Source: Flagellimonas allohymeniacidonis (GTDB taxonomy: Bacteria > Bacteroidota > Bacteroidia > Flavobacteriales > Flavobacteriaceae). From it: a stretch of DNA of 64,000 nucleotides. A program made the position numbers and the translations under genes. Below are positions 8,986 through 16,904 of this stretch, in pieces. Every line of letters begins with the position of its first letter. The stretch's first letter is position 1. The notes beneath the pieces were generated by a model. It was not told the DNA's origin, ran no database searches, and worked only from the letters and a program-made list of their open reading frames with translations. Location: assembly GCF_004296335.1 (NCBI RefSeq), contig NZ_SGIU01000002.1:695882-759881 (forward strand), in the 5' to 3' direction.

Positions 8986-9399
8986 TTAATGAGGCAACCT
9001 ACTCCTTAAGATTCCATAACAATAAGTCCCTAAAATTGCTGCCCCCAACGCAATCAGTATTGGGAAATAACCCGCGCCAGCAAGCACAAACATGGGACCT
9101 GGACAGGCACCGGCCAAGGCCCATCCCAAACCAAAAAGAATTCCTCCCAAGATGTATCTCGCATATCCCCGATCCTTGGGGATGAAAACAATTTTTTCAC
9201 CATAAAATGATTTTATGTTGAATCTTTTGATCAGTTGAATCTGTACAATCCCCAAAACAAGTGCGGAACCGATTATCCCGTACATGTGGAAGGCGTCAAA
9301 CTGAAACATTTCGTAAATACGGAACCAAGAGGCCGCCTCAGATTTAAAAAGGACTATTCCAAAGAAGATTCCGACAAATAAATAACCTAATACCCTCAT
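8986..9399 (-). CDS. YeeE/YedE-family permease subunit (DUF6691 type)
   Basis: A 137-residue membrane protein with four predicted helices and the family signature GWALAGACPGP at about residues 94-104. The cysteine in that motif is thought to pass sulfur through the membrane in YeeE/TsuA-type thiosulfate transporters. It forms a split permease with the preceding 185-residue subunit: their genes are separated by only 2 bases, and many bacteria carry the same pair (PmpA/PmpB style) beside rhodanese and persulfide dioxygenase genes. The substrate is a reduced sulfur species, thiosulfate or a persulfide carrier, by family and context. Transcription most likely comes from the operator-controlled promoter at 9981-9988. 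Confidence 0.85.
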   Translation of the reverse strand: MRVLGYLFVGIFFGIVLFKSEAASWFRIYEMFQFDAFHMYGIIGSALVLGIVQIQLIKRFNIKSFYGEKIVFIPKDRGYARYILGGILFGLGWALAGACPGPMFVLAGAGYFPILIALGAAILGTYCYGILRSRLPH

Positions 9400-9401
9400 T
9401 G

Positions 9402-9959
9402 CTAAAACAATATTGGAAATAAAACATGAACCATAAAAAGTCCTCCTATGAAAAACCCTATTACAGCAATCAAGGAAGGAAGCTGCAGGTTGCTAAGACC
9501 TGAAATCGCATGACCAGAGGTGCAACCTCCGGCATATCGAGCGCCGAAGCCTACCAAAAAGCCCCCAACTATCAATATGAGCAAAGACGAAATATCTGTA
9601 AAAACCTGGCTTCCAAAGAGGTTTTCAGGTAGATAGGCCTTACCTGCATCGGCAAAGCCCAAAGTATGAAGTTCCGCGCTGCTTTCGTTGGCAATTGCCA
9701 CGGCATTATCAGGAGAAAGACCATAGTTGGCAATAAATCCTCCAATTATTACACCGAGAACCACAGTGAGATTCCATCGATTCGCTTTCCAATCAAACCT
9801 AAAAAAATCGGCATGTTTTCCGGCTCCACAAATGGTACACAGCGTTCTGAGGTTGGACGACATTCCAAAATTTTTGCCCATCATCGTTAGCAAAAAGAGT
9901 ACAAGGGCTATTAATGGCCCTGATACATACCAAGGCCAAGGTTCGAAGATAAAATCCAT
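9402..9959 (-). CDS. YeeE/YedE-family permease subunit
   Basis: A 185-residue membrane protein with about five helices. The hallmark GFGARYAGGCTSGHAISG lies near residues 138-155, with the cysteine expected in the sulfur relay. It also has an N-terminal TICGAGKHADFFRF segment that is conserved in this family. It is the first gene of a two-gene unit with the DUF6691 subunit, and together they match the length of one full YeeE permease. The ATG at 9959 lies about 16 bases from the predicted transcript start, downstream of a TATTTTTG -7 element and a GTAAC-N4-GTTAC-like dyad that also faces the sulfite dehydrogenase gene. Import or export of thiosulfate-like sulfur at the inner membrane is inferred. 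Confidence 0.87.
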   Translation of the reverse strand: MDFIFEPWPWYVSGPLIALVLFLLTMMGKNFGMSSNLRTLCTICGAGKHADFFRFDWKANRWNLTVVLGVIIGGFIANYGLSPDNAVAIANESSAELHTLGFADAGKAYLPENLFGSQVFTDISSLLILIVGGFLVGFGARYAGGCTSGHAISGLSNLQLPSLIAVIGFFIGGLFMVHVLFPILF

Positions 9960-9976: not shown

Positions 9977-9999
9977 CGTGCAAAAATACACTTTGCACG
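9977..9999. promoter_or_regulatory. 8-bp inverted repeat over the yeeE promoter
   Basis: CGTGCAAA and TTTGCACG are separated by 7 bases. The repeat covers the -7 element of the permease promoter (9981-9988), so a second regulator, probably a repressor, could bind here. It may also be chance, since part of it is fixed by the promoter. Confidence 0.35.
9981..9988 (-). promoter_or_regulatory. -7 element of the YeeE/YedE permease promoter
   Basis: On the minus strand this reads TATTTTTG, a perfect TAnnTTTG. Its last base is exactly 36.5 bp from the centre of the dyad at 10011-10024. The ATG at 9959 would lie about 16 bases downstream of the transcript start. Confidence 0.7.
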
Positions 10000-10010
10000 C
10001 GGGTCATTGG

Positions 10011-10024
10011 GTTACTTGGGTTAC
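10011..10024. promoter_or_regulatory. Shared Crp/Fnr-type operator between yeeE and sulfite dehydrogenase
   Basis: The dyad GTTAC-TTGG-GTTAC matches GTAAC-N4-GTTAC at 9 of 10 half-site positions. It lies 36.5 bp (centre to last base) from a TAnnTTTG-like element on each side, which puts it near -42 at both divergent promoters, the classic class II activator position. The same site type and spacing recur at 14477-14490 and 16253-16266. The likely binder is the Crp/Fnr protein encoded at 16272-16904. Confidence 0.7.
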
Positions 10025-10046
10025 ATAAGTATCCTAAAATATATGT

Positions 10047-10054
10047 TACCTTTA
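10047..10054 (+). promoter_or_regulatory. -7 element of the sulfite dehydrogenase promoter
   Basis: TACCTTTA matches TAnnTTTG in 7 of 8 positions counted with the two free bases. It is centred as expected relative to the operator at 10011-10024. The transcript would begin about 6 bases before the ATG at 10066, giving a very short leader. Confidence 0.55.
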
Positions 10055-10065
10055 AATCTGGCATT

Positions 10066-11286
10066 ATGAACCGAAGAGATTTCAACAACAAGTTTTCACT
10101 ATCCACCATTGGAAGTTTTTTGGGAATCCATTTCATTTCCGGACACCTACTTTCAGCAAAACAGCTCCCAGTACACCTTCAAGATCCCGATCCCTACAAA
10201 ATGTTCGGCAAGGATAAGAACATGGTGCTCTTGAATGACAGGCCATGGAACATGGAAGCGAGGGCCCACCTTTTGAATGATGCAATTACCCCGAACAAGT
10301 ACATGTTCATCCGCAATAATGGCAAAATTCCACAGAACATCGACATCAAAAATTGGAGTTTGACCCTAGATGGTGAATCTGTAAAAACAAAAAAAACCTA
10401 TTCCCTTAACGAGCTAAAATCAAGGTTTGAGCATCATACCTATCAGTTGACCTTGGAATGCGGTGGCAATGGTAGAAGTGAGTTCGACCCCCCTGCAAAG
10501 GGCAACCAATGGAGCGTTGGTGCGGTTTCATGTGCGGAATGGACCGGGATTCGGTTAAAAGATGTTCTCAAGGATGTCGGCCTTGAAGATTCTGCGGTTT
10601 ATATCGGCTATCATGCAGCTGACACCCATTTGAGTGGTGACCCAACAAAAGAACCCATTTCACGGGGTGTTCCGATAGCCAAAGCGATGCAAGACGAAAC
10701 CCTTTTGGCCTTTAAAATGAATGGGAAGGACATTCCTTTGGCACATGGATATCCGCTTCGTTTGGTTTGTGGCGGTTGGCCCGCCTCCGCTTCGGGCAAA
10801 TGGATAAATCGCATTAGCGTTCGCAATAAAGTACATGATGGAGCCAAAATGGGAGGCAGCTCGTACCGAGTTCCCTGTGAAACCGTCGCACCAGGGGCTA
10901 AAGTTTCCGATGAAAATATGTGCATCATTCAGTCCATGCCCATAAAATCACTGATTACATATCCAAAGACCGGGGCTATACTTCCCTTGGGAAAATCACT
11001 ATCCATTAAGGGTCATGCCTGGGCAGGGGAATTAGAGGTTGCTAAAATGGAATATTCCATTAATTTTGGAAGCACTTGGGCGTCCTGCTCGCTTAAAAAT
11101 CCACCCAATCGCTTGGCATGGCAACATTTTGATGCCAAAATTCGCTTTCCCAAAAAGGGATATTATGAAGTATGGGCGAGAGCTACCGACTCCCATGGAA
11201 TTGGTCAACCGATGGTGTTGCCAGGATGGAACCCTAAAGGGTATTTGAACAACGCTTGCCATCGTATTGCCGTAAAAGTAGTTTAA
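10066..11286 (+). CDS. Sulfite dehydrogenase, molybdopterin subunit (SorA/SoxC-like)
   Basis: A 406-residue enzyme that would oxidise sulfite to sulfate in the periplasm. The N-terminus is a twin-arginine-like signal (NRRDF followed by a hydrophobic stretch to about residue 32). The sulfite oxidase fold follows: FIRNNGKIP, then TLECGGNGRSEF, in which Cys132 should bind molybdenum, then a C-terminal immunoglobulin-like dimerisation domain from about 290 (VAKMEYSINFGSTW, YEVWARATD). It lacks the haem b5 domain of animal enzymes and instead is followed after 2 bases by a c-type cytochrome gene, the arrangement of SorAB. It begins the plus-strand side of the sulfur cluster, under a promoter with the shared operator. 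SoxC-like activity is less likely because no sox genes are present. Confidence 0.88.
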   Translation: MNRRDFNNKFSLSTIGSFLGIHFISGHLLSAKQLPVHLQDPDPYKMFGKDKNMVLLNDRPWNMEARAHLLNDAITPNKYMFIRNNGKIPQNIDIKNWSLTLDGESVKTKKTYSLNELKSRFEHHTYQLTLECGGNGRSEFDPPAKGNQWSVGAVSCAEWTGIRLKDVLKDVGLEDSAVYIGYHAADTHLSGDPTKEPISRGVPIAKAMQDETLLAFKMNGKDIPLAHGYPLRLVCGGWPASASGKWINRISVRNKVHDGAKMGGSSYRVPCETVAPGAKVSDENMCIIQSMPIKSLITYPKTGAILPLGKSLSIKGHAWAGELEVAKMEYSINFGSTWASCSLKNPPNRLAWQHFDAKIRFPKKGYYEVWARATDSHGIGQPMVLPGWNPKGYLNNACHRIAVKVV

Positions 11287-11288
11287 GA

Positions 11289-11750
11289 ATGTCCGAAGTT
11301 TTTAGAAAACAGGTAAAAAGGTTGATGGGCATGCTAACGATATTCATGTTCTTGATAATTCTCTTTTTGGGCGGATTGATCTATTTTCAAAATCATCCAG
11401 AAAAACTATACCTCAATGCTCCGGAAGAGGAACTTGTTGAAATTTCGGAGCAAATTGACGACAAAATCGAAAATGGAATCCACGTTCGAACGGGATTTGT
11501 GGCTGATGAGGGCATGGACCTGGTCATCCAAAATTGTACCAGTTGCCATTCATCCAAATTGGTCACGCAAAATCGCATGAGCAAGGAAGGCTGGGAGGCT
11601 ACCATACTGTGGATGCAGGAAACTCAAAATCTTTGGGATTTAGGGGCGAATCAGGACGTCATAACAGCCTATCTTGCCAAAAATTATGGACCTGTGGCCA
11701 AGGGAAGACGACAAAATTTAAAGGATATCGACTGGTATCCACTTAAATAA
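11289..11750 (+). CDS. c-type cytochrome subunit of sulfite dehydrogenase (SorB-like)
   Basis: A 153-residue protein with an N-terminal membrane anchor at about residues 12-33 and one haem-binding motif, CTSCH at 83-87, in a small cytochrome domain; a methionine such as Met97 would be the axial ligand. It should take electrons from the molybdopterin subunit encoded 2 bases upstream and hand them to the respiratory chain. The surrounding sequence (VIQNCTSCHSSKLV, WEATILWMQ) resembles the short SorB-like cytochromes that accompany bacterial sulfite oxidases. Start chosen at ATG 11289 because upstream in-frame codons overlap the preceding gene. Confidence 0.85.
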   Translation: MSEVFRKQVKRLMGMLTIFMFLIILFLGGLIYFQNHPEKLYLNAPEEELVEISEQIDDKIENGIHVRTGFVADEGMDLVIQNCTSCHSSKLVTQNRMSKEGWEATILWMQETQNLWDLGANQDVITAYLAKNYGPVAKGRRQNLKDIDWYPLK

Positions 11751-11757
11751 GTACCGT

Positions 11758-12636
11758 ATGCAAGAATATTTTGAAGCATTCGTCAGTGGTTTTTTGGGGA
11801 CTCTGCAATGGACATGGAAGTCCATACTTTTTGAAGTGCCCTGGTACACCAATTATTTTTGGGGCCTGGTTTTGATTTCTTTGTTCATTTGGGCATTGGA
11901 GATACTATTTCCTTGGAGAAAGGACCAATCGGTTTTTAGAAAGGATTTTTGGTTGGACGGGTTTTACATGTTCTTCAACTTTTTCATTTTCTCCATCGTC
12001 ATCAATGGTGTTTATAAGATGTTGGAGGTTGGGTTTCAGGAATTTGGAATTTCAGCAAGCAGTTTGGCCCTTATTGATATGTCTTCATGGTCCATCGGGT
12101 TGCAATTGTTGGTCTTCTTTGTCCTTTTGGATTTTGTCCAATGGCTCACCCACATCGCCCTGCATAAGTTCCCAATACTTTGGCGCTTCCATAAAGTACA
12201 TCACAGTGTAAAGGAAATGGGCTTTGCCGCCCACCTTCGCTATCATTGGATGGAAAACATTTTTTACAAACCCTTAAAAACTTTTGGGGTGATGTTGTTG
12301 GGAGGCTTTGAACCTGATCAGGCCTACATTGTACATTTTACCGCCATTGCCATTGGGCATTTCAACCATTCCAACATTAAGATTACTTGGGGGCCTTTCA
12401 AATACATCTTCAATAATCCCGTGATGCACCTGTACCATCATTCTTATACCCTCCCCAAAGGAAGCTATGGAGTGAATTTTGGGATTAGCCTGAGCTTATG
12501 GGATTACCTATTTAAGACCAATTACATTCCAGAAGATGGTGGTACGATTGACCTGGGGTATCCCGGGGACGAGTCCATGCCCAGCGGTTTTTTTAAACAA
12601 CTGGTCTACGGATTTATTAAAAAAAGGAAGACTTAA
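11758..12636 (+). CDS. Fatty acid hydroxylase / sterol desaturase family membrane protein
   Basis: A 292-residue di-iron membrane protein with about four helices in its first 130 residues. The histidine clusters of the superfamily are all present: HIALHK with WRFHKVHH near 140-157, HFNHSN near 200-205, and HLYHHS near 222-228. Members hydroxylate or desaturate acyl chains, sterols, sphingoid or carotenoid lipids; which substrate is used cannot be told. It begins 7 bases after the cytochrome gene, so it is probably in the sulfite dehydrogenase operon. That link to sulfur metabolism is unexplained; hydroxylation of sulfonolipids, which many Flavobacteriia make, is one guess. Its stop overlaps that of the rhodanese gene on the opposite strand. 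Confidence 0.85.
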   Translation: MQEYFEAFVSGFLGTLQWTWKSILFEVPWYTNYFWGLVLISLFIWALEILFPWRKDQSVFRKDFWLDGFYMFFNFFIFSIVINGVYKMLEVGFQEFGISASSLALIDMSSWSIGLQLLVFFVLLDFVQWLTHIALHKFPILWRFHKVHHSVKEMGFAAHLRYHWMENIFYKPLKTFGVMLLGGFEPDQAYIVHFTAIAIGHFNHSNIKITWGPFKYIFNNPVMHLYHHSYTLPKGSYGVNFGISLSLWDYLFKTNYIPEDGGTIDLGYPGDESMPSGFFKQLVYGFIKKRKT

Positions 12637-13013
12637 TCCCTGGTCCAGTCATCATAGCCCCCAGAATAGTCCAATATGTTTTGAAAGCCTTCTTTTCTCA
12701 ATAGTTGGGCCGCCGAGTTGCTTCGCCCACCTTTTTTGCAATACAGGTACACCGGTTCATCCTTCTCGAGAGCCGAGATTTGTTTTAAGAAAGTTTCTTT
12801 GTCCTTAATGTTGAAATTAACGGCACCATCAATATGTCCTGCGGTAAATTCGGCAGGAGTTCGGACATCAAGTAGTTGTACATCCTTCCCCACAACCTCA
12901 GCCATCACCGTTTGCTTGTCAATCTTTTTGATGGAACCTTCCTTTTTTGGCTGGCATCCAAAAAATTGTAGAAAAAGAGCAACGGCAAGAACAGGTTTAA
13001 AAATAGTGCGCAT
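12633..13013 (-). CDS. Rhodanese-like lipoprotein
   Basis: A 126-residue single rhodanese domain behind a lipoprotein signal peptide; the lipobox cysteine is the one in FFGC at about residue 20. The active-site loop is YCKKGGRS, with the cysteine that carries a persulfide during sulfur transfer, and the CH2A-like motif LLDVRTPAEF lies near 48-57. It should therefore sit in the membrane, facing the periplasm, and move sulfane sulfur there. The gene follows the persulfide dioxygenase gene by 3 bases and is certainly part of its operon. It converges tail to tail with the fatty acid hydroxylase gene, with 4 bases overlap, so the two operons share their 3' ends. Confidence 0.88.
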   Translation of the reverse strand: MRTIFKPVLAVALFLQFFGCQPKKEGSIKKIDKQTVMAEVVGKDVQLLDVRTPAEFTAGHIDGAVNFNIKDKETFLKQISALEKDEPVYLYCKKGGRSNSAAQLLRKEGFQNILDYSGGYDDWTRD

Positions 13014-13016
13014 TCC

Positions 13017-14429
13017 CTAATCTTTTAAAGTGGTCGGGCAAACAAAGTTCGTAACCGGGATTCCAGCCTTTTTAATGGCAGCAAAGCCACCAGCTACGTC
13101 CACCAAATTATGTACACCCCTACTTTTAAGAATGGATGCTGCAATCATGCTGCGGTAACCTCCAGCGCAATGCACATAAAAGGTTTCATCGGATGGGAAC
13201 TCGGTCAAGTGATCATTAAGAAAATCCAGTGGGGTCAAGTGGGCATTATCAATATGCTCCGCGCTGTACTCAGGTTCTTTTCGGACATCAAAGACAGGTA
13301 CTCCTTCCTCGACTTTGCTCTTAAAGGTGTCAGCTTGGATGCTCTGTACACTATCCGTTTCTTTTCCCGAGGCTTCCCAAGCCTCAATTCTACCTTTCAA
13401 ATAACCTATGGTCCCATCAAAACCAACACGGGATAGCCTTGTGATGGTTTCTTCTTCCTTGCCCTCCGGTGTTATGAGCAAAATGGGCTGTTTCACATCA
13501 GCAATTAAGGAGCCCACCCATGGTGCGAAGCTTCCATTTAAGCCAATAAATATGGAACGTGGTATATGGGCCTTGGCAAAGTCATCCTGATGACGGACAT
13601 CCAGAACTACGGCTCCGGTTTCGTTGGCAGCAATTTCAAAAGCCGCCGGTGACAAGGCAACAGCTCCTCTTTCGATTACTTCATCGATATCATCATACCC
13701 CTCTTTGTTCATTTTTACATTTAATGGGAAATATTGCGGGGGTGGTAATAAGCCATCCGTGACTTCTTTTATGAACTCCTCTCGGGTCATATTTGCTCTC
13801 AAGGCGTAGTTCATCTTCTTCTGATTGCCCAAAGTATCGACCGTTTCTTTCATCATGTTCTTTCCGCAAGCCGAACCTGCTCCGTGTGCCGGATAAACAA
13901 TCACCTCATCTGCCAACGGCATGATTTTGGTTCGAAGACTGTCAAACAAGGTGCCTGCCAATTCTTCTTGGGTCATATCGGCCGCCTTTTGCGCCAAATC
14001 AGGTCTTCCCACATCCCCCAAAAACAGCGTATCACCACTAAAAATGGCATGGTCCTTTCCATTTTCATCCCTTAACAAATAGGTTGTGCTCTCCATAGTA
14101 TGCCCTGGTGTATGCAGCGCAACTATGGTTAGTTTTCCTAAAGGAAACTCCTGGCCATCCTCGGCTATAATGGCATCAAAACTTGGATTGGCCAGTGGCC
14201 CGTAAACTATAGGGGCTCCACTTTCCTTGGAAAGGGTAACGTGGCCGCTCACAAAGTCCGCATGAAAATGGGTCTCGAAAATATATTTTATTTTGGCGCC
14301 ATCGGCCTGAACCCTTTTAAGATAGGGCTCGACCTCACGCAAAGGGTCAATAATCGCTGCTTCTCCTTCGCTTTCTATATAGTAGGCTCCTTGCGCCAAG
14401 CATCCTGTATAAATTTGTTCAATTTTCAT
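13017..14429 (-). CDS. Persulfide dioxygenase-like MBL fold protein fused to two rhodanese domains
   Basis: A 470-residue protein related to ETHE1/CstB-type enzymes. The N-terminal metallo-beta-lactamase domain (1-245) has THFHADFVSGH (His54, His56, Asp58, His63), TPGH (His110) and SGDTLF (Asp133), the ligand set for mononuclear iron that oxidises a persulfide to sulfite. Residues 258-355 form a rhodanese fold whose catalytic cysteine is missing (LLITPEGKEEE in the loop), so it is probably structural. Residues 370-465 form a second rhodanese with an intact loop, VHCAGGYRS. This arrangement occurs widely in sulfide detoxification. The sulfite made here could be consumed by the sulfite dehydrogenase encoded on the other strand. 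It has its own operator-controlled promoter and is followed by the rhodanese lipoprotein. Confidence 0.9.
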   Translation of the reverse strand: MKIEQIYTGCLAQGAYYIESEGEAAIIDPLREVEPYLKRVQADGAKIKYIFETHFHADFVSGHVTLSKESGAPIVYGPLANPSFDAIIAEDGQEFPLGKLTIVALHTPGHTMESTTYLLRDENGKDHAIFSGDTLFLGDVGRPDLAQKAADMTQEELAGTLFDSLRTKIMPLADEVIVYPAHGAGSACGKNMMKETVDTLGNQKKMNYALRANMTREEFIKEVTDGLLPPPQYFPLNVKMNKEGYDDIDEVIERGAVALSPAAFEIAANETGAVVLDVRHQDDFAKAHIPRSIFIGLNGSFAPWVGSLIADVKQPILLITPEGKEEETITRLSRVGFDGTIGYLKGRIEAWEASGKETDSVQSIQADTFKSKVEEGVPVFDVRKEPEYSAEHIDNAHLTPLDFLNDHLTEFPSDETFYVHCAGGYRSMIAASILKSRGVHNLVDVAGGFAAIKKAGIPVTNFVCPTTLKD

Positions 14430-14446
14430 CTCAAATAATTTTAATT

Positions 14447-14454
14447 CAAAGATA
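14447..14454 (-). promoter_or_regulatory. -7 element of the persulfide dioxygenase promoter
   Basis: On the minus strand this reads TATCTTTG, a perfect TAnnTTTG. The last base is 36.5 bp from the centre of the dyad at 14477-14490, and the transcript would start about 12 bases before the ATG at 14429. Confidence 0.7.
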
Positions 14455-14476
14455 ACACTGCTAAACTTTCTTTTTG

Positions 14477-14490
14477 GCTACTCAAGTTAC
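14477..14490. promoter_or_regulatory. Crp/Fnr-type operator upstream of persulfide dioxygenase
   Basis: Read towards the gene it is GTAAC-TTGA-GTAGC, matching GTAAC-N4-GTTAC in 8 of 10 half-site positions. It overlaps the stop codon of the SulP gene (14487-14489). Its distance to the downstream -7 element equals that of the other sites in this cluster. Confidence 0.65.
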
Positions 14491-16217
14491 ATAGCCCCAG
14501 TTTTTGATTGCAGGGAAATCTTTTCTTGAATTTCGTTTTTTGTTTTTGGGTTTTCACAATAATCCACAGCCTCATGGGTACGCACAAATAAACTTTGCTT
14601 GCCGATGATCTCTATTAATCCGCTAGAATAAAAAATATCTCGTGTCGGACCAATGGCCCCCGCTATTAAAAATTGAATATTCCGCGCTCGGAGATCGTTA
14701 ATAATTTGTTCCAGCGTTTTGGCTGCACTGCTGTCAATATAATTTATGGCTTCGGCATTTAGCACGACATACCTTAACCCTTCTCCCTTATTGGTCACCT
14801 GTCTGAACAATTCCCTTTTAAAGTAATCTTTGTTTCCAAAGAAAAGTTGTGCATCAAACCTCAAAATTAGAATTTCAGGTCGGGTCTCCACTTCCTTCTC
14901 AAATCGTTCCACATTTTTAAAATAATTGGTGCCCTTGATACGGCCCAAAATGGCGATATGTGGTTTTGAAATTCGATTTACCAGAAGAAAAAGAGAGAAC
15001 AATACGCCTATGATAATCCCCTGTGAAATACCAATCAACAAAGTGGTCAAAAACGTAAAAGCCAGCAGTATAAATTCATCTTTACGTTGTTTGTAAAGTT
15101 CCACGGGGTATTTAAAATCAATTAAACTATAGACTGCCACCAAAATAATGGCTCCTAATACCGCCTTGGGCAAATAACTGAAAAGCGGGGTCAAAAAAAG
15201 CAAGGTCAAAGCCACTACTAAGGTGCTAACTATGGATGCCAGCCCTGTTTTAGCTCCTTCATTGACGTTGACCGCTGTTCTAGACAAGCCGGAATTAGCG
15301 GGATAGGACTGGAAAAATGAGCCCACAATATTGGAAATGCCCAAAGCCCTTAGTTCTTGATTGGCATTAGTATAATACTTATTGCTGCGTTCCTCAACTG
15401 CCTTGGCCATAGTCATCGCTTCCGCAAATGAGATAAAGGCCAAAGTAAGCGCTAGGGGAAACAAGGTGGACCAGTATCCGGTACCCATTGAGTGCATGGT
15501 AAATCTTGGAAGTCCCTTGGGAATTTCACCCACTAGGGCTATGTTTCCTTCTTGTATAGGCAGGTAGTACACAGCTAAAATGGAAAGTATCACCACAGCC
15601 ATGGCTGCAGGTAATTTTCGGTGTAGTCGCTTCAATGCCAAAATCAGTAGTACGCTGGCCAAACCAACTACCAAATCAGGAAAATTGGTTTCTCCAATTT
15701 TGTAGAAAATCTCTTTAAGAACAGCCAATGTGCCCAATGCATCTATCGATATGCCCAAAAGGTATTTTAATTGACTAATGGCTATCACCAAAGCTGCCGC
15801 GGAAGTAAAACCACTGACCACGGGACGTGATAAAAAATTGGCCAAAAATCCCATTTTTAAGAATCCCATAGCCAACTGCAACAATCCAACAAAGAGGGCT
15901 AGAAACAAAGCCATGGCAATGTAATCCTGAAGATTGGACAGTTTCAAGGCCGCTAAGCCAGATGCCACAATTAATGAATCGAGAGCCACCGGACCCACGG
16001 CCAACTTTCTGCTAGATCCCGTTATGGCGTATAAAAGATTCGGTACCAAGGCGGCATATAGTCCGTAAACTGGAGGTAGGCCCGCAATGAGAGCATAAGC
16101 CATACCTTGGGGAATGAGCATGATTCCCACGGTGACTCCCGCAGAAATATCTCCAGACCAATAGCTTTTTTTATAGTTTGGAAGCCAATCGAGTATTGGA
16201 AAGTAGCGTTTCAGCAT
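14487..16217 (-). CDS. SulP family inorganic anion transporter with STAS domain
   Basis: A 576-residue SLC26/SulP protein with 12-14 predicted membrane segments and a cytoplasmic C-terminal STAS domain at about 430-550 (ILRFDAQLFFGN, NYIDSSAAKTLEQI). The N-terminal family signature follows the canonical WLPNY and GVTVGIMLIPQGMAYAL. SulP proteins move sulfate, bicarbonate or other anions with H+ or Na+; here the neighbours suggest sulfate, either uptake or removal of the sulfate that sulfite oxidation makes. The frame is open to an ATG at 16238, but a perfect -7 element (16223-16230) lies within those seven extra codons, so the ATG at 16217 is preferred; this would give a nearly leaderless mRNA. 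It begins 35-55 bases after the Crp/Fnr gene. Confidence 0.9.
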   Translation of the reverse strand: MLKRYFPILDWLPNYKKSYWSGDISAGVTVGIMLIPQGMAYALIAGLPPVYGLYAALVPNLLYAITGSSRKLAVGPVALDSLIVASGLAALKLSNLQDYIAMALFLALFVGLLQLAMGFLKMGFLANFLSRPVVSGFTSAAALVIAISQLKYLLGISIDALGTLAVLKEIFYKIGETNFPDLVVGLASVLLILALKRLHRKLPAAMAVVILSILAVYYLPIQEGNIALVGEIPKGLPRFTMHSMGTGYWSTLFPLALTLAFISFAEAMTMAKAVEERSNKYYTNANQELRALGISNIVGSFFQSYPANSGLSRTAVNVNEGAKTGLASIVSTLVVALTLLFLTPLFSYLPKAVLGAIILVAVYSLIDFKYPVELYKQRKDEFILLAFTFLTTLLIGISQGIIIGVLFSLFLLVNRISKPHIAILGRIKGTNYFKNVERFEKEVETRPEILILRFDAQLFFGNKDYFKRELFRQVTNKGEGLRYVVLNAEAINYIDSSAAKTLEQIINDLRARNIQFLIAGAIGPTRDIFYSSGLIEIIGKQSLFVRTHEAVDYCENPKTKNEIQEKISLQSKTGAM

Positions 16218-16222
16218 TGCCA

Positions 16223-16230
16223 CAAAGGTA
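16223..16230 (-). promoter_or_regulatory. -7 element of the SulP promoter
   Basis: On the minus strand this reads TACCTTTG, a perfect TAnnTTTG, with its last base 36.5 bp from the centre of the dyad at 16253-16266. It overlaps the longest possible SulP frame, which decides for the shorter start at 16217. Confidence 0.65.
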
Positions 16231-16252
16231 GTTAGCATTTATGGGAAAGTGG

Positions 16253-16266
16253 GTAACCCAGGTTGC
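16253..16266. promoter_or_regulatory. Crp/Fnr-type operator upstream of SulP
   Basis: The top strand reads GTAAC-CCAG-GTTGC, 9 of 10 half-site matches to GTAAC-N4-GTTAC. It lies in the 35-bp space between the regulator gene and the SulP gene, at the spacing seen at the other promoters of this cluster. Confidence 0.7.
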
Positions 16267-16271
16267 AAAAC

Positions 16272-16904
16272 CTAAAGGTCCACTATCTTGATATGATTTC
16301 TATGAAGTTCAAGTTTGCCCATTTTTTCCAACTTTTTGAGCAATCTGGAAACCACAACCCGCGAAGTGTGCAAATCCATGGCTATTTCTTGATGTGTGCT
16401 CTGCAAATAAGTATCGTTGGCTATTTCTGATTTCTTTTTGAGATAGTCCACCAACCTTTGGTCTAAATTCTTGAATGCGATATTGTCCACAGTCTGCAAT
16501 AGTTCATTCATACGGTTGTGATAGCTTTCCATAATAAACTTTCGCCATCCATGGTATTTCCCCATCCATTCCTCCATCTTTTGGGCAGGTATCATGATGA
16601 GTTCCGAGGGAGTCTCGGTAACGGCCATAATCTCACTTTTGGTTTGTCCCAAACAACATGCGGTGGTTACGGAACAGGTTTCACCTTGTTCCAAATAATA
16701 CAACAAGAGTTCATCGCCGTCTTCATCTTCCCGTAAAACCTTTATGGCTCCAGATAAAAGAAGCGGTATGGACCGAATATATTTGCCTATCTCCATAATC
16801 TTTTCCCCAGTAGGTAATTCCAAAAGCTTGCCGACATCATTGATTTCATCAATTAATTCTTGCTCAAAAAGGTTTCCAAAAGTGGTTTGAAGTGCTTCTT
16901 TCAT
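16272..16904 (-). CDS. Crp/Fnr family transcriptional regulator of the sulfur cluster
   Basis: A 210-residue regulator with a cyclic-nucleotide-binding-like sensory domain (residues 15-120), a long dimer helix, and a C-terminal winged helix at about 145-210. The recognition helix HTSRVVVSRLLKKLE keeps the Ser-Arg pair of FNR but has Val where FNR has its key Glu, so its site should differ from TTGAT; the GTAAC-N4-GTTAC dyads found at four neighbouring promoters are the natural candidates and resemble HcpR-type sites. There is no N-terminal iron-sulfur cysteine set, but the sensory domain holds Cys77, Cys83 and Cys84 (CSVTTACCLG), which could form a persulfide or tetrasulfide and sense reactive sulfur. 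No such dyad was found before its own gene. Confidence 0.85.
   Translation of the reverse strand: MKEALQTTFGNLFEQELIDEINDVGKLLELPTGEKIMEIGKYIRSIPLLLSGAIKVLREDEDGDELLLYYLEQGETCSVTTACCLGQTKSEIMAVTETPSELIMIPAQKMEEWMGKYHGWRKFIMESYHNRMNELLQTVDNIAFKNLDQRLVDYLKKKSEIANDTYLQSTHQEIAMDLHTSRVVVSRLLKKLEKMGKLELHRNHIKIVDL

Follow-up and report, generated by a model that had tools for sequence, protein, structure and literature searches.

Which regulator controls the cluster of sulfur genes on contig NZ_SGIU01000002.1 of Flagellimonas allohymeniacidonis, and through which operator would it act? A sequence-only reading of a 64,000-nucleotide stretch of this contig (positions 695,882 to 759,881; the window) had noticed a Crp/Fnr-family gene at the end of the cluster and several dyads of the form GTAAC-N4-GTTAC next to -7 elements resembling TAnnTTTG, and had proposed a class II activator. 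In the class II layout of the Crp/Fnr family, the dyad is centred about 41.5 bp upstream of the transcription start. Comparison with the rest of the genome and with related genomes makes it very probable that the Crp/Fnr-type protein is a class II activator of genes for the oxidation of sulfide to sulfate; DNA binding, activation and the transcript starts are what we infer from sequence comparison.

Composite sites in the window

The elements in question, all located both by direct reading and with a script except the gene, are as follows (window coordinates; dyad scores are half-site matches).

10011-10024, strand-neutral: dyad GTTACTTGGGTTAC, 9/10, common to the divergent yeeE and sorA promoters
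14477-14490, minus strand: dyad GCTACTCAAGTTAC, 8/10, putative operator upstream of the persulfide dioxygenase (PDO) gene
16253-16266, minus strand: dyad GTAACCCAGGTTGC, 9/10, putative operator upstream of sulP
9981-9988, minus strand: -7 element TATTTTTG of the yeeE operon
10047-10054, plus strand: -7 element TACCTTTA of sorA, 5/6 defined bases
14447-14454, minus strand: -7 element TATCTTTG of the PDO gene
16223-16230, minus strand: -7 element TACCTTTG of sulP, 22 bp from the dyad
16272-16904, minus strand: gene for the Crp/Fnr-family regulator, 210 amino acids

The three dyads with their scores and the four -7 elements lie where the sequence-only reading had placed them, and its constant distance of 36.5 bp between the dyad centre and the last base of the -7 element is correct for all four promoters, corresponding in each to a gap of 22 bp. 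It had called such a coincidence unlikely, and the counts agree: dyads of at least 8/10 combined with -7 elements of at least 5/6 gave four matches in the window at gap 22 and none or one at every other gap from 10 to 40 bp, whereas 200 runs with a first-order Markov model of the window gave a mean of 0.345 matches at gap 22 and a maximum of two.

The dyad alone carries no such signal. The window has 20 dyads of at least 8/10, and in the whole genome dyads with no more than one mismatch are rarer (61) than those of a reversed control pattern (416). Perfect dyads number 5, 9, 4 and 8 in the genomes of four relatives, against 14, 8, 8 and 11 for the controls. The dyad was discarded as a search key of its own, since it is not significant alone; the signal lies in the dyad together with a -7 element at gap 22.

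Conservation of the site in relatives

Of 149 genomes in the family, 126 have a match to the regulator at an E value of 1e-20 or better (paralogues included); at class level, 121 of 198 genomes have one at 1e-25. Conservation of the site in relatives that carry the gene, a test set beforehand, was assessed in the best 80 of 588 flavobacterial loci around Crp orthologues (1.5 Mb; some of them close kin), among which the closest orthologues, at no more than 78% identity, come from Allomuricauda, Flagellimonas and Muricauda. In these loci GTAAC-N4-GTTAC occurs without mismatch 224 times, as opposed to six for the reversed pattern. Of the 444 oriented perfect dyads, 122 have a perfect TAnnTTTG at gap 22, compared with 0–6 at any other gap between 5 and 55 bp, and the expectation of conservation is borne out. 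At 196 of 222 dyad places a -7 element of at least 5/6 stands at this gap on one side or more, and at 22 places on both. When all 1024 palindromic 5-mer half-sites were combined with a perfect TAnnTTTG at gap 22, GTAAC gave 122 matches, GTGAC four, ATGAC two and two others one each.

Sites under a relaxed definition (311 in total) are present in all 80 loci, and the arrangement is found again in many genera. In the matrix of 287 distinct sites, for which the dyad and -7 bases had served for selection, a T also precedes the dyad (0.86) and a weak T/A-G-T/A follows. The triplet TTG is found at six -33-like places in only 19 of 282 spacers, and because of this scarcity the promoters look weak without an activator. 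Provided that transcription starts about 5 nt past the -7 element, the dyad is centred at about -41.5; taken together, the gap of 22 bp, this centring and the mostly missing -33 element would correspond to a class II activator layout. In four whole genomes of relatives, a -7 element of at least 5/6 accompanies 16 of the 26 perfect dyads at gap 22, and the genes downstream of these 16 sites resemble those for TauE/SafE, PDO, sulfide-quinone reductase (SQR), a TolC operon, DUF983, thioredoxin and others.

Association of the regulator with the dyad

The sites should be scarce in genomes that lack the regulator, and at one target gene, that for PDO, they are indeed almost missing there. Among 30 Crp-bearing genomes (those with the highest Crp matches, represented by one PDO locus each, second PDO copies being left out), the PDO gene has a site no more than 1.5 kb away in 24 of the 30 loci, as against one of 18 loci in 17 genomes without a match at 1e-20 (a Fisher test of this association ignores kinship). 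These 17 belong to a set of 20 genomes without such a match, three further ones lying outside the set; some may only seem to lack the orthologue, because just nine of the 20 reach a completeness of 90%. L215, the sole site-bearing PDO locus without an orthologue, consists of a fragment at the end of a contig, and its genome is about 75% complete.

A second link comes from the recognition helix of the regulator, SRVVVSR (residues 181–187). In a class-level set of 69 distant loci (the best matches in order, with G315 and G326 skipped; some loci share one genome), 31 have Val at residue 183 and 38 have Glu. When any half-site was allowed and a -7 element at gap 22 was required, the Val loci gave GTAAC in 13 loci and three other half-sites once each, and the Glu loci gave GTGAC four times, GTGAT three times, CTGAC once and two unrelated half-sites at L302. 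There was no crossing between the V183/GTAAC and E183/GTGAC types under this requirement. Without it, all 20 dyads of the concordant classes, 13 GTAAC dyads with Val and seven GTGAC or GTGAT dyads with Glu (L231, L239, L293, L300, L309, L315 and L316), still keep the 22-bp gap; each crossed class has a single dyad, in neither case at this gap. Genes for PDO, rhodanese, SulP or a fatty-acid hydroxylase are neighbours in 16 of the 38 Glu-type loci. On a tree built without the helix columns residue 183 changes four times (at least three changes being forced), and all three independent pairs are concordant with the half-site. The tie between this regulator family and the dyad through covariation of residue 183 and half-site is thus well supported at the level of sequence comparison.

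The regulator protein

The gene in the window is the only one of the 19 PF00027 matches in the genome (18 of them above cut-off) to be located there, as the sequence-only reading had maintained. Its product has an N-terminal domain of the cyclic-nucleotide-binding type (PF00027, 38.0 bits; cut-off 27.5) and a C-terminal Crp-type helix-turn-helix (PF13545, 36.8 bits; cut-off 27), in which the predicted model places helices at 171–177 and 182–194. The cysteines reported earlier, C77, C83 and C84, are present and are the only ones in the protein. Together with R182, V183 and R187 they are invariant in 109 close orthologue loci; these comprise the 80 loci and 29 more (L006–L034), five of which repeat a Crp protein of the 80, and hence represent 103 distinct proteins. 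The 69 distant homologues all retain C77; 67 of them have C83, and 49 have C84.

In CRP, cyclic AMP (cAMP) is contacted by E72 and R82. In place of these contact residues, the orthologues have Met or Val at the first of the aligned places (79) and mostly Lys at the second (89), and the CRP model NF008732 gives 51.8 bits against a cut-off of 266; the protein is not CRP. FNR has an N-terminal cysteine cluster for its iron–sulfur centre. The regulator has cysteines only at 77, 83 and 84, and scores 25.1 bits with the FNR model (cut-off 228), which makes it no FNR either, and the NtcA family model does not claim it (39.4 bits; cut-off 244.95).

We propose that the protein would bind GTAAC-N4-GTTAC as a dimer, centred at about -41.5 and separated by 22 bp from the Bacteroidetes -7 element downstream, with the right half touching the usual -33 region. 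It would thereby activate, in class II fashion, yeeE1-yeeE2, sorA-sorB, sulP and the persulfide dioxygenase–rhodanese genes, and probably also a sulfide-quinone reductase gene outside the window; the products would serve a route from sulfide through persulfide and sulfite to sulfate, plus sulfur-anion transport. The signal would be a persulfide or polysulfide derived from sulfide and sensed by C77 with C83/C84, in a loop that would be the counterpart of the cyclic-nucleotide-binding loop of CRP. For this signal and its perception by the cysteines we see the chances as evenly balanced.

Near the first Crp gene, four loci (L087, L099, L100 and L111) carry a second Crp paralogue that has C77 without C83/C84 and a helix of the Glu type (SREVISR or SREGISR). 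The paralogue may bind GTGAC sites, for example upstream of some PDO and SQR genes.

Genes of the sulfur cluster and putative targets in relatives

The genes that surround the sites in the window are the following.

8986-9399, minus strand: second YeeE/YedE half (DUF6691/Sulf_transp; PF20398, PF04143)
9402-9959, minus strand: YeeE/YedE-type sulfur transporter half (PF04143, 66.3 bits)
10066-11286, plus strand: SorA-like molybdenum sulfite oxidase/dehydrogenase (PF00174, PF03404; sulfite oxidase 2a9d, E 7.5e-54)
11289-11750, plus strand: SorB-like c-type cytochrome (NF052246, 29.2 bits, a weak match below the cut-off of 93; CTSCH visible in the sequence)
11758-12636, plus strand: membrane protein of the fatty-acid-hydroxylase family (PF04116), after sorAB
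12633-13013, minus strand: rhodanese (PF00581), 3 bp downstream of the metallo-beta-lactamase/rhodanese gene
13017-14429, minus strand: metallo-beta-lactamase and rhodanese protein, the PDO gene (PF00753; PF00581 in two stretches)
14487-16217, minus strand: SulP-STAS anion permease, sulP (TIGR00815, 494 bits, above cut-off; start read as ATG 16217)

The metallo-beta-lactamase/rhodanese protein matches 3tp9 (E 9.3e-75) and 3r2u (E 2.1e-50) and is likely a persulfide dioxygenase/sulfurtransferase, an enzymatic name that we infer; the rhodanese gene presumably forms one operon with it. The SorA family model gives the SorA-like protein 225 bits, below the cut-off of 600. The longest open reading frame of sulP begins at 16238, upstream of its -7 element; since this element ends 5 nt ahead of ATG 16217, a start at 16238 is unlikely. 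The same distance of 5 nt is found in five of 26 sulP sites of relatives, and the sulP mRNA may be leaderless. The hydroxylase-family gene is presumably part of the sorAB operon. This family has no obvious role in sulfur metabolism, yet the gene has a site of its own in 19 of the 37 relative loci that hold it.

Downstream of the 311 relaxed sites we found genes for PDO/rhodanese (91), SulP (26), TauE/SafE-like proteins (25), a YgaP-like membrane protein (23), an SQR-like flavoprotein (20; representative matching 3hyv, E 3.9e-36), the fatty-acid-hydroxylase family (19), DUF983 (19), TolC-like proteins (13), cytochrome c (13), peroxiredoxin (11), SorA (8), YeeE (8), the Crp regulator itself (7) and cytochrome bd (6), the remainder occurring once or twice each and nine sites having no open reading frame. 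Names were given by similarity to the window proteins or from one representative per cluster, and the list is biased to neighbours of crp because the loci are centred on this gene. Among the 80 loci, a site precedes the gene in 58 of 69 that hold PDO, 26 of 38 with SulP, 8 of 14 with SorA, 8 of 17 with YeeE, 19 of 37 with the hydroxylase and 7 of 80 for crp. In the eight relatives with a sorA site the sorA -7 element reads TAnnTTTA, as in the window, and five of the eight also have, as in the window, a second -7 element (6/6) on the far side of the dyad. By these site counts the regulon is wider than the four promoters of the sequence-only reading.

TolC-like genes with sites occur in three of the four whole genomes and in 13 of the 80 loci; at L195:1917-7507 an operon for TolC, membrane-fusion and RND efflux proteins follows a perfect site, beside a second metallo-beta-lactamase/rhodanese gene. 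A DUF983-type gene, so named from one representative, recurs among the targets (in 19 of the 80 loci; for example L081:819-1238 and L190:10606).

A probable sulfide-quinone reductase site outside the window

The scan of the F. allohymeniacidonis genome covered dyads of at least 9/10 (not those of 8/10) and examined 48 of the 61, namely 43 outside the window and five inside. Only two of the 48 have a -7 element of at least 5/6 at gap 22, both in the sulfur cluster. None of the 43 outside the window does, and three of these reach 4/6. The sequence-only reading had named sites near sulfur genes only as support: the organism's own genome agrees with this, as far as the 48 dyads go; in the relatives, efflux pump, peroxiredoxin, thioredoxin and cytochrome bd genes also have them.

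One of the three dyads with 4/6, a perfect dyad at position 516797 of contig 2, with TAACTTAA at gap 22, lies directly upstream of a gene with a product similar to sulfide-quinone reductase 3hyv (E 4.9e-60). Among 48 genomes searched four have this SQR, all four with the Crp orthologue, and in three of them the site is present at the 22-bp spacing (dyads of 8/10, 10/10 and 10/10; -7 elements of 5/6); the fourth has none. The dyad, the identity of the gene and the relatives suggest that this SQR gene is probably driven by the Crp regulator.

Weighing the alternatives

A number of observations weigh against the proposed regulator, its code or its signal. The window sites are degenerate (8–9/10), and in Crp-bearing genomes the site is missing from 6 of the 30 PDO loci. 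At the class level, 18 of 31 Val loci and 30 of 38 Glu loci (the CTGAC locus being counted as having one) show no perfect dyad with a -7 element at gap 22 within 1.5 kb, and the three independent V/E pairs are too few for significance. GTGAC-like dyads of 8/10 precede SQR (G120) and PDO (L046) in Val-type genomes, and a GTGAC site of 9/10 occurs at L221, a Val locus of the class-level set; because of such weak sites the residue 183 code is a preference rather than a strict rule. The SQR -7 element in this genome has only 4/6, and 3 of 86 oriented dyads reach 4/6 at gap 22 compared with an average of 4.6 at other gaps, so that this element alone is no better than chance; being uninformative, it leaves the SQR site to rest on the perfect dyad, the gene identity and the relatives, and one of the five SQR genes has no site. 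C84 is missing in 20 of the 69 distant homologues. The structure prediction (19 sequences) has a confidence score (pLDDT) of 72.6 and falls below 50 in the cysteine loop (63–90), and for that reason gives no cysteine distances. Finally, the targets in relatives are not all sulfur genes, as they include the TolC–membrane-fusion–RND operon, DUF983, thioredoxin, peroxiredoxin and cytochrome bd.

This last point bears on the nature of the signal. The dyad and the activation could be real and the cysteine loop could respond to the general thiol redox state, a low-molecular-weight thiol, nitric oxide or oxygen, an explanation that we find somewhat doubtful but far from negligible. The peroxiredoxin, thioredoxin, cytochrome bd and efflux targets would suit it, as would the response of the Crp-family proteins PrfA and Vfr to glutathione, mentioned in one report (PMC7315123); however, the same report describes cytochrome bd and enzymes against reactive oxygen species of Acinetobacter as likewise induced by sulfide, and the commonest targets here are PDO/rhodanese, SulP, TauE/SafE-like and SQR-like genes, though in loci centred on crp. 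It is improbable that the protein is instead a repressor that masks the -33 region until sulfide releases it. Several persulfide sensors (CstR, SqrR, BigR) do repress and the dyad adjoins the -33 position, but a repressor would tolerate shifts, whereas the single spacing (122 against 0–6) fits contact with RNA polymerase, and the promoters, with a TTG at -33-like places in only 19 of 282 spacers, look weak without an activator.

Nor do we expect another regulator to bind the dyad with the adjoining Crp gene as a bystander, which seems very improbable even though most of the 19 PF00027 matches of the genome are too divergent for alignment of the helix: residue 183 covaries with the half-site, PDO sites are nearly absent from genomes without the orthologue, and the two other proteins of the genome with an alignable helix (L132 and L133) have TESxIR, not SRVVVSR. 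A supposed second protein with an RVV helix (L141) was rejected, since its partial alignment belonged to an adjacent reading frame. Chance, or common descent of sequence without function, has a practically negligible probability. Related loci are not independent and some of the 80 are close kin; still, the same DNA holds 224 perfect dyads against six of the control, and the site is conserved in other families of the class, where the spacers have diverged. The chance reading is ruled out by these counts, the spacing count in the window, the Markov simulation and the 122 against 0–6. The class II activator of the Crp/Fnr family remains the preferred interpretation, and conservation, orthologue association and covariation all argue for it.

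Relation to known systems and implications

In class II promoters of Escherichia coli, CRP binds a dyad at about -41.5, and the Glu of its recognition helix is E181. The regulator described here shares with CRP the fold family, the helix-turn-helix and, presumably, the dyad position; it differs in having Val in place of the helix Glu, a GTAAC half-site, and Met/Val and mostly Lys at the cAMP-contact places. CstR, SqrR and BigR are persulfide repressors of the CsoR and ArsR folds that act through cysteines on the same kind of genes; target genes, and possibly the use of cysteines, are similar, whereas fold and repression set them apart. The Crp/Fnr-family structure 3dv8 has cysteines at the places of both C77 and C83, with a helix (SHREVITR) that has Arg-Glu where Arg-Val is found here; its entry name carries no function.

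NtcA, the nitrogen regulator of the Crp family in cyanobacteria, binds GTAN8TAC at about -41.5 (PMC3898017). The dyad here is also GTA-N8-TAC, presumably near -41.5, and the helix-turn-helix aligns to the RVtVtRLL of NtcA with Val at the matching position; the cysteine loop with its putative role, the sulfur regulon and the Bacteroidetes -7 element are the differences. Two reports describe FisR of Cupriavidus and Acinetobacter as a persulfide-linked activator of sulfide-oxidation genes (PMC9774590, PMC7315123); FisR is a sigma-54 activator and unrelated to the Crp regulator as a protein. The latter report also mentions that sulfide induces cytochrome bd in Acinetobacter and that a Crp is persulfidated there, with unknown effect, and another states that in sediment the transcripts of sqr and pdo, among them those from Bacteroidota, increase with sulfide (PMC12345210). 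Among the top-ranked results of searches in one open-access literature library, which are not proof, we found neither a cysteine-bearing Crp activator of sulfide oxidation in Bacteroidetes nor a regulator of Bacteroidota sqr/pdo genes. Crp/Fnr proteins, class II sites and sulfide oxidation genes are known kinds; what appears to be new is their combination with this operator, spacing and residue–base code.

A broader reading is that of a Bacteroidia-wide Crp/Fnr class that gave up cyclic-nucleotide binding, converted its phosphate-binding loop to persulfide sensing by C77 with C83/C84, controls the complete oxidation of sulfide to sulfate and switched between the V183/GTAAC and E183/GTGAC types at least three times; we regard it as tentative, its chances falling just short of even. 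Gene, operator, core-promoter spacing and target list are supplied here, and the proposal is therefore directly testable. It would offer a likely one-residue, one-base switch of protein–DNA specificity, and a class II promoter that could be used in Bacteroidetes genetics.

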